This document shows positions 12,215 through 13,277 of a stretch of DNA of 62,408 nt, in pieces (the stretch's first letter is position 1; each line of letters opens with the position of its first letter). A model generated the notes under the pieces. It saw only the letters and a list, made by a program, of their open reading frames with translations, was not told the DNA's origin and ran no database searches. The DNA is from Piscirickettsiaceae bacterium (GTDB lineage Bacteria > Pseudomonadota > Gammaproteobacteria > Nitrosococcales > Methylophagaceae), in assembly GCA_024685995.1 (NCBI GenBank), contig JAIBDY010000007.1:1-62408 (forward strand). The letters run 5' to 3'. The position numbers were made by a program, and so were the translations under genes.

Positions 12215-12524
12215 TCTATCGAACAAAGAAGTCATATCCTGCTCACTTCAACCATTTTTCGCACGTCTTGATATTATCGCATCATTGGATTTTTAATTTT
12301 CACCCTACTCGCCTAACGTTTTGATGAACAAAAAATGCCGGTACTTTCCACCCTATTTTCAAGCAGTAATATAGTAATTTTATTCTTAATATCAATGACA
12401 TTACCCCCTCCCATTTCAAAATGATAATTCACAGCGAATGGCTCTTGTTTCATGCTATTTTTTAAGATATTGTTTTATACAGAAACAAAATGTTTCTATT
12501 GATCGTTAATGATTTTTTATAAAA

Positions 12525-12592
12525 GCCAACCTTGGTGTGAACCAAGCTACGGAAAGTCACAGGTCTTTAATCCAATAAAGATGGCTGAACTG
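12525..12592 (+). ncRNA. Probable cyclic di-GMP-I (GEMM-I) riboswitch aptamer
   Basis: The leader of the PEP-CTERM-like gene follows the GEMM-I plan. GCCAACC (12525-12531) faces GCTACGG (12546-12552) around a CTTGG...CCAAG hairpin, giving the first stem-loop. Next comes ACGGAAAGTCACAGGTCT, close to the family's ACGCAAAGCCACAGGTCT junction. A second stem TCTTTA/TAAAGA (12564-12569 and 12576-12581) follows, and then ATGGCTGAACTGC, close to the conserved 3' strand. GEMM-I RNAs bind c-di-GMP and often precede surface or matrix genes. The GNRA tetraloop of the first hairpin is not classical here. A covariance-model search would settle it. Confidence 0.65.
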
Positions 12593-12611
12593 CATTTTCA
12601 AAAGGAAAATG
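12593..12611 (+). promoter_or_regulatory. Hairpin over the Shine-Dalgarno site, likely riboswitch expression platform
   Basis: CATTTTC (12593-12599) pairs perfectly with GAAAATG (12605-12611) around the loop AAAAG. The Shine-Dalgarno AAGGA (12602-12606) lies in the loop and the first base of the 3' arm, eight bases before the ATG at 12614. It begins directly at the aptamer's 3' end, so ligand state could open or close it. That suggests translational control; the direction of the switch is not readable. Confidence 0.5.
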
Positions 12612-12613
12612 TG

Positions 12614-13219
12614 ATGAATAAACTTCTTTCCGCTGTCGCTATTGCTACAGCCTTCTTAATTAGCCCTATTGCCAACGCTGCGCTAACAGTCTACAACGCC
12701 CCTTCCAATCCATTTTCATTTATGAATAGTGATGGCAACACACTGTCTTTTGAATATTCAGGTGGAACCACAGTGAGTCGAATTGCTGCTGGCGATGACA
12801 ACCCAAGCGCGCCGATCAGCAACCAAAGCTACAATGCAATCGGTGACGCGATTGAAACCGTTTTTTCACTTCCTGCGAATACTTTTGCTGCCGAGTCCAC
12901 ATTATCTGGCACATTTAAGGGTGATATCAGCGGGTCTTCAGCGACGATTACCAGTACGATTCCGTATGACTACCTCGCCGTCCACTTCGGCAAATATGAA
13001 GTATTTTTCCACTTTGCAACATTGGTCACAGCAGGAACGACTTTTGACATTTTTAATGTTGCTGCAACAAAAACAGGTACGGGTGGGAAAGGTGGTGGTC
13101 TAAGTAACTTCAGAGTCTATGACTCAGGCTTATCTGAAGTGCCTATCCCCGGCGCACTCTTTTTACTAGCACCAGCATTATTAGGCTTGCTCGGCTTCAG
13201 AAAAAGTCTAAAAGCTTAG
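12614..13219 (+). CDS. Secreted protein with PEP-CTERM-like (VPxPG) sorting tail
   Basis: From the ATG at 12614 the product is 201 residues: a signal peptide ending in ANA, a beta-rich Ser/Thr/Gly body, and a C-terminal tail VPIPGALFLLAPALLGLLGF followed by RKSLKA. The tail is the tripartite motif, helix and basic end of exosortase-type sorting signals (a VPxP variant). A longer frame to 12509 is rejected because its first 35 codons overlap the riboswitch and the ATG at 12614 has the real ribosome binding site. The protein is likely surface-exposed or matrix-related, which fits c-di-GMP control. No exosortase is in the window. Confidence 0.8.
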   Translation: MNKLLSAVAIATAFLISPIANAALTVYNAPSNPFSFMNSDGNTLSFEYSGGTTVSRIAAGDDNPSAPISNQSYNAIGDAIETVFSLPANTFAAESTLSGTFKGDISGSSATITSTIPYDYLAVHFGKYEVFFHFATLVTAGTTFDIFNVAATKTGTGGKGGGLSNFRVYDSGLSEVPIPGALFLLAPALLGLLGFRKSLKA

Positions 13220-13241: not shown

Positions 13242-13277
13242 AAAAAGCCGTCATGATTAACTTCATGACGGCTTTTT
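13242..13277 (+). terminator. Strong rho-independent terminator
   Basis: AAAAAGCCGTCATG pairs with CATGACGGCTTTTT around the short loop ATTAACTT. The 3' arm runs into a T-stretch. It lies 23 bases after the PEP-CTERM-like gene and also has an A-run on the 5' side, so it may work in both directions. Confidence 0.9.

Follow-up and report, generated by a model that had tools for sequence, protein, structure and literature searches.

The question raised by this locus is how a leader that may sense c-di-GMP could control the translation of the secreted-type protein encoded behind it. The locus lies in a stretch of 62,408 nucleotides (the window, meaning here the whole stretch of DNA that was analysed) from the genome of a marine, methanol-using member of the Methylophagaceae, where an earlier note had read a GEMM-I core at 12525-12592, a hairpin hiding the Shine-Dalgarno (SD) sequence and a PEP-CTERM-type surface protein. 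We propose that the leader is a c-di-GMP-I riboswitch on translation, working as an ON switch through an SD-masking stem that shares residue C92 with the aptamer, and we give this reading a probability of about 0.6.

The aptamer and the gene behind it

In the Rfam search of the whole window, the c-di-GMP-I riboswitch (RF01051) matches at 12515-12597 on the forward strand with 42.5 bits against the gathering score of 35 (E 5.8e-5). Both stems are present, so that the covariance-model check suggested in the earlier note is passed, and the stretch 12525-12592 is indeed the core of the longer match. This is the only Rfam match in the window at gathering thresholds and also the sole RF01051 match in the own genome, an assembly of 56 contigs and 1.84 Mb that is 82% complete. 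With a family model made from 89 Methylophagaceae relatives, the window being left out, the leader reaches 85.7 bits (E 8e-22), which ranks among the best of the family, the runner-up within the window having 15.3 bits. The alignment under this model also excludes the canonical aptamers of G027 and G028, sequences with N, near-duplicates more than 86% alike and, removed by hand from the remaining 95 rows, the six rows L024, L039, L148, L156, L160 and L168.

The key ligand-pocket residues listed in the passages of PMC3764141 (G20, A47, A48 and C92) are all retained, as seen from the RF01051 alignment, the folding and a residue check: the G20 equivalent, a ligand contact, is G12525, the equivalents of C44 G45 G46 A47 A48 A49 occupy 12550-12555 with A47 at A12553, A48 at A12554 and A49 at 12555, and the C92 equivalent, also a ligand contact, is C12593. 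The core pair is C21-G46 in place of the G21-C46 of well-studied aptamers; the idea that the corresponding GCC...CGG pattern is an invention of the family was rejected, the pattern occurring in many other bacteria among the matches listed. The P2 hairpin (12531-12546) carries a GUGA tetraloop at 12537-12540, and P3 (12556-12589) is a continuous helix without the 11-nt tetraloop receptor. Thus the mark of type I, a GAAA tetraloop with the 11-nt receptor, is absent in the window aptamer, and a GYRA tetraloop without receptor corresponds to type II of the class according to the passages of PMC11218506. Across the 89 relatives, 15 of the 20 pairs of P2 and P3 are changed on both sides and 97.4% of the cells are paired, and the homologous leaders keep the conserved junction bases. 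At the position of the P1 pair G14-C93, which RF01051 does not model as paired, the window has A12519 and A12594 and no pair. Judged from these matches and from the covariation, the leader is a real c-di-GMP-I aptamer.

The gene (12614-13219, forward strand) encodes a protein of 201 aa in which inspection of the translation gives a signal peptide and, at the C terminus, VPIPG, a hydrophobic stretch and a basic RK end. This VPxP sorting-signal-like tail, VPIPGALFLLAPALLGLLGFRKSLKA at 13139-13213, scores 45 bits (E 2.6e-11) with the family tail profile, the tail itself being one of the 30 rows of that profile. The protein has four full-length relatives, 68, 54, 51 and 45% identical to it, and a riboswitch and an SD hairpin precede every one of their genes. 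By the profile, then, the tail is a diverged member of the family tails, and the profile together with these 45-68% identical orthologues supports the type of the gene. The earlier description as PEP-CTERM type was right in kind, the tail being VPLPA-like, but no curated cut-off is reached: TIGR03370 has no match in the own genome, the window protein scores 14.8 bits with XDP1 against a cut-off of 125, and no Pfam model matches it above cut-off. When scored individually at E <= 1, 26 of the 30 family tails match VPLPA-CTERM and 20 match PEP-CTERM. The predicted fold, made from two sequences, has a mean pLDDT of 45 and is uninformative. An inverted repeat with a T run at 13242-13277 (forward strand), read from the sequence and absent from the scan listing, is the presumed terminator of the gene, and the sequence scan gave no convincing promoter for the leader.

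The masking hairpin and the proposed switch

The hairpin at 12593-12611 is a perfect 7-bp stem of -6.6 kcal/mol (temperature set at 25 C), with the arms CATTTTC (12593-12599) and GAAAATG (12605-12611) and the loop AAAAG (12600-12604). The earlier note had it following the aptamer at once, with the SD in its loop. The perfect stem stands, but the hairpin overlaps the aptamer rather than lying 3' of it, because its first base, C12593, is C92 of the aptamer; and the SD, AAGGA at 12602-12606, straddles loop and stem. In the predicted ensemble, C92 of the window pairs with the stretch from the SD to the AUG with a probability of 0.998. Among 53 distinct family leaders with short spacers (10-22 nt), C92 is paired in 33 when the stretch from C92 to the AUG is folded to minimum energy, whereas 20 shuffled sets average 10.4 and never exceed 16; each of the four full-length orthologues also has an SD hairpin in its leader. 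In one leader (L161, G006:C39) a short duplication at the 3' end of the aptamer repeats TGGGCTGC, and the SD hairpin begins at the second C.

Based on the sharing of C92, the switch is proposed to work as follows. In the ligand-free state, the 3' end of the aptamer, C92-A-U-U-U-U-C, would pair with GAAAAUG and hide the SD. In the bound state, C92 would pair with a guanine of c-di-GMP and the masking stem would lose its closing C-G pair, making ribosome binding easier, so that at high c-di-GMP the secreted protein with the exosortase-type tail would be made. Such a protein may become attached to the surface and may have a role in biofilm or exopolysaccharide. The own genome has 24 GGDEF matches. 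If the gate is true, it is a very compact expression platform.

The folding calculations bear on this proposal in the following way. With the aptamer bound and C92 set free from the hairpin, the predicted cost of opening the ribosome site in the window is 8.2 kcal/mol instead of 10.0. The same constraint saves 1.06 kcal/mol across 46 short-spacer leaders, compared with -0.02 in shuffles (p = 5e-5, a value to be weighed with the fact that this measure was chosen after the result of another), and has no effect in 35 long-spacer leaders (0.03 compared with 0.08 in shuffles, p = 0.46). The other measure, the mean unpaired probability of the SD, was dropped and replaced by the opening energy, as it gave no difference between the free (0.46) and the bound state (0.45) in 45 short-spacer leaders. 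In long-spacer leaders, whether free or bound, the SD is predicted to be more exposed than in shuffles. It should be noted that the predicted effect is small and that, as nothing but C92 is shared, six of the seven pairs of the stem may remain when ligand is bound. We propose that C92 is common to c-di-GMP and to the arm masking the SD or AUG, the direction being probably ON.

The persistence of six pairs also fits a switch of the opposite sign, which we consider unlikely but by no means negligible. The hairpin starting at A93 would take over the position of P1 and stack below the ligand-C92 pair, binding would stabilise the masking, and c-di-GMP would repress translation. Passages of PMC3764141 place the G14-C93 pair normally in the ligand stacking network, and this place is vacant in the window leader. 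The nearest-neighbour energies instead predict easier opening in the bound state, although they ignore stacking on the ligand; and three of the four transcripts of PEP-CTERM-linked riboswitches in a Methylophaga strain are higher in biofilm (passages of PMC12530212). ON is more likely than OFF, though the direction could be the opposite one if the hairpin stacks under the ligand.

It is less probable again that the hairpin is merely a constitutive brake on translation, with the aptamer acting otherwise, on message stability or transcription, or decaying together with its single gene. In favour of this reading, a single riboswitch and a single tail gene were found in the own genome, and no exosortase; and in one relative (G012, 99% complete, no exosortase match) all six tail matches fall in short frames of 40-183 aa, one of them interrupted by a stop, where the tail genes are possibly eroding after loss of the sorting enzyme. 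The window aptamer, with a score among the best of the family, its intact reading frame and the retention of the hairpin in the four orthologues point the other way. Variants of the c-di-GMP-I class can bind different ligands, and the window aptamer differs from the usual core not only in its C-G pair 21-46 but also in having C rather than A at residue 25; the variant model RF03167 also matches, with a better E-value on a short-stretch scan. But this match, at 39 bits, is below the gathering score of 59, so that RF03167 was rejected as the true family, RF01051 is above its own cut-off, and A47 and G20 are kept, which leaves a ligand other than c-di-GMP as the most improbable of these alternatives. 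We thus prefer the ON switch with the shared C92.

Recurrence of the leader and of its gene

RF01051 matches are found in 60 of 192 genomes, the own genome included. The test by open reading frame took 129 of the approximately 175 family matches, and 112 of the riboswitches so examined stand before an ORF whose tail resembles VPVPAALFLFAPALLGFLGLRRK. The positives include the frame-broken G012:C16, with an ORF starting 143 nt downstream, and the 17 loci that went uncounted comprise three near-miss tails, eight ORFs that continue past the end of the sequence taken and six loci without a tail ORF by this test. In the genus of the window, 64 of 71 riboswitches (from 18 genomes, one riboswitch being below cut-off) are followed within 2.6 kb by a VPxP tail encoded on the same strand, and the ORF test on the same 71 gives 59. 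Looked at from the side of the tails, the profile has 133 matches in 16 of the 26 genomes of the genus searched, and 64 of these carry a riboswitch. Among the 69 loci with no upstream Rfam match, none fits the family model (the sole match up to E 10 has 9.7 bits, E 2.7), and therefore about half of the tail proteins stand under the riboswitch and half do not; a few leaders among the 69 go unseen because contig ends cut some short (e.g. L182, L183, L215, L221). The family model run over 31 genomes added few further riboswitches. To our knowledge, exosortase substrates have few known regulators, and a riboswitch on this share of the genus tail genes would be a direct and testable wire from c-di-GMP to a set of secreted proteins.

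Several loci have arrangements of their own. In genus g3 (Methylophaga), arrays of three to five neighbouring tail genes have one riboswitch per gene (L077, L078, L080), and lie some 25-46 kb from the exosortase match of the same contig. In G027 and G028 (L069, L070), a canonical aptamer (GGCAAA, C92-C93) stands 100-112 nt before a different long secreted protein, with no tail in the stretch read and no tail-profile match in either genome. Four relatives have a c-di-GMP-I aptamer with no tail gene and no clear gene directly behind it (L039, L047, L024 and L168, at G003:C8:1961, G011:C16:41925, G016:C7:213941 and G012:C18:303593). Upstream of each, a promoter-like pair TTGACC...TA-T can be seen by eye, three of the four have a terminator-like hairpin directly after the aptamer, and those of G011 and G016 have a similar gene, of 295 or 292 aa, upstream of them and a convergent gene facing them. 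These solitary aptamers resemble an independent small RNA, about 130 nt long, that would sense c-di-GMP.

In the 53 short-spacer leaders of the family, P1 pairing does not rise above chance (mean 2.89 bp, against 3.04 in shuffles, sd 0.15). It slightly exceeds chance in 49 long-spacer leaders (3.45, against 3.21 in shuffles, sd 0.16) and does so clearly in 83 outsiders among the matches listed (3.48, against 2.74 in shuffles, sd 0.16). C92-A-U, that is, CAT at C92-94, occurs in 89 of 124 family aptamers versus 3 of 82 outsiders among the matches listed, 47 of these 82 having C92-C93; two Cycloclasticus rows are left out of this count and kept in that of P1. The outgroup counts come from 80 titled pattern-scan loci among the matches listed, nine of the Methylophagaceae being set aside. 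Our reading is that P1 has been replaced by an arm that would pair with the SD or the AUG. When short leaders exchange their 5' arms, the penalty is 1.2-1.3 kcal/mol, with p = 0.003 for one arm length and 0.0015 for the other. Within the CATTTT group, significance is reached at one arm length (p = 0.0019) but not at the other (p = 0.2), no covariation was found by arm swaps outside the CATTTT leaders (p = 0.58 and 0.41), and the arm-swap test found no hairpin covariation in long leaders. Taken for the whole family, we tentatively suggest, at somewhat less than even odds, that the Methylophagaceae aptamer dropped P1, that an arm, CAU(UUU), able to pair with the start codon or SD came to begin at C92, so that messenger and start site compete for one base, and that this minimal gate was copied before about half of the VPxP-tail genes of the genus, c-di-GMP setting which sorted proteins are made.

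Outside the family, a sorting-tail gene lies next to the riboswitch in 12 of 71 loci by a loose pattern and in 10 by a strict one, among the matches listed; the background in the same loci, the hits themselves included, is 28 (loose) and 16 (strict) of 825 ORFs. The tail-linked records among the matches listed are of Methylomonas, Methylobacter, Methylococcales, Thiomicrorhabdus, Cycloclasticus, Alteromonadaceae, Nitrosomonadales, Desulfobacteraceae, Desulfobacterales and Deltaproteobacteria. Because the link recurs in this way outside the family, it is suggested to have arisen or been kept repeatedly. Tandem aptamer pairs were seen in records of Thiomicrorhabdus and of Campylobacterales or Epsilonproteobacteria (L263, L300, L308, L311, L341).

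The sorting enzyme co-occurs with the riboswitch. Of the 57 family genomes, 35 have an exosortase match (PF09721, E <= 0.001). When the 32 strong matches are counted, with G031 (30.3 bits, above the cut-off) and the sub-cut-off ones taken as without, 27 genomes have both riboswitch and exosortase, 5 the exosortase only, 8 the riboswitch only and 17 neither (Fisher p = 8.8e-5). Three of the four typed exosortases are XrtD, at 546-558 bits against a cut-off of 400: those of G038 and G008, genomes with the riboswitch, and that of G026 (69% complete), which has neither riboswitch nor tail match, a point against the link. The fourth, that of G035, is XrtB, and G035 has no riboswitch. The own genome gave no exosortase match, which at 82% completeness is weak evidence of absence, and the search there for a counterpart of the gene adjacent to xrtD in a relative, made without a positive control, found none.

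Comparison with known systems

With the variant c-di-GMP-I-GGC (RF03167), which is of the same clan, the window aptamer shares the bases matched, but the consensus there is GCGAA compared with GGAAA in the window. It is like c-di-GMP-I type II (RF01051) in the core residues, P2, P3 and the GUGA tetraloop without receptor. It differs in that the short-spacer leaders of the family have no P1 above chance, and in that the family has A for C93 and then U, feeding the arm that would pair with the SD or AUG. On the side of the gene, the window tail is below curated cut-offs and no exosortase is seen in the own genome, but the tail has the same plan as in the VPLPA-CTERM / XrtD system (TIGR03370 / TIGR04152), VPxP followed by a hydrophobic stretch and a basic end, and XrtD is present in three typed relatives, two of them with the riboswitch.

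Among the closest known cases is Methylophaga nitratireducenticrescens GP59, for which the passages of PMC12530212 give seven c-di-GMP riboswitches, four of them beside PEP-CTERM genes, the one PEP-CTERM-linked transcript that is not higher in biofilm being higher in planktonic cells; such transcript levels do not report translation. The link between c-di-GMP riboswitch and PEP-CTERM is thus already in print (2025) for one Methylophaga strain. In the passages seen of the literature on riboswitches with PEP-CTERM or exosortase, it is found only in PMC12530212, those of PMC10599522 mentioning GEMM-I genes and PEP-motif proteins separately. Ribo4 to Ribo7 of GP59, before PEP-CTERM/VPLPA-CTERM genes, are of the same family, riboswitch class and gene kind as the window, and five GP59 riboswitch positions are within approximately 160 bases of the matches in G038. 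That work concerns one strain and transcript levels, its passages giving no expression platform or family-wide count, whereas the scale of the regulon, P1 at chance in short-spacer leaders and the CAU starting from C92 are new in the present analysis.
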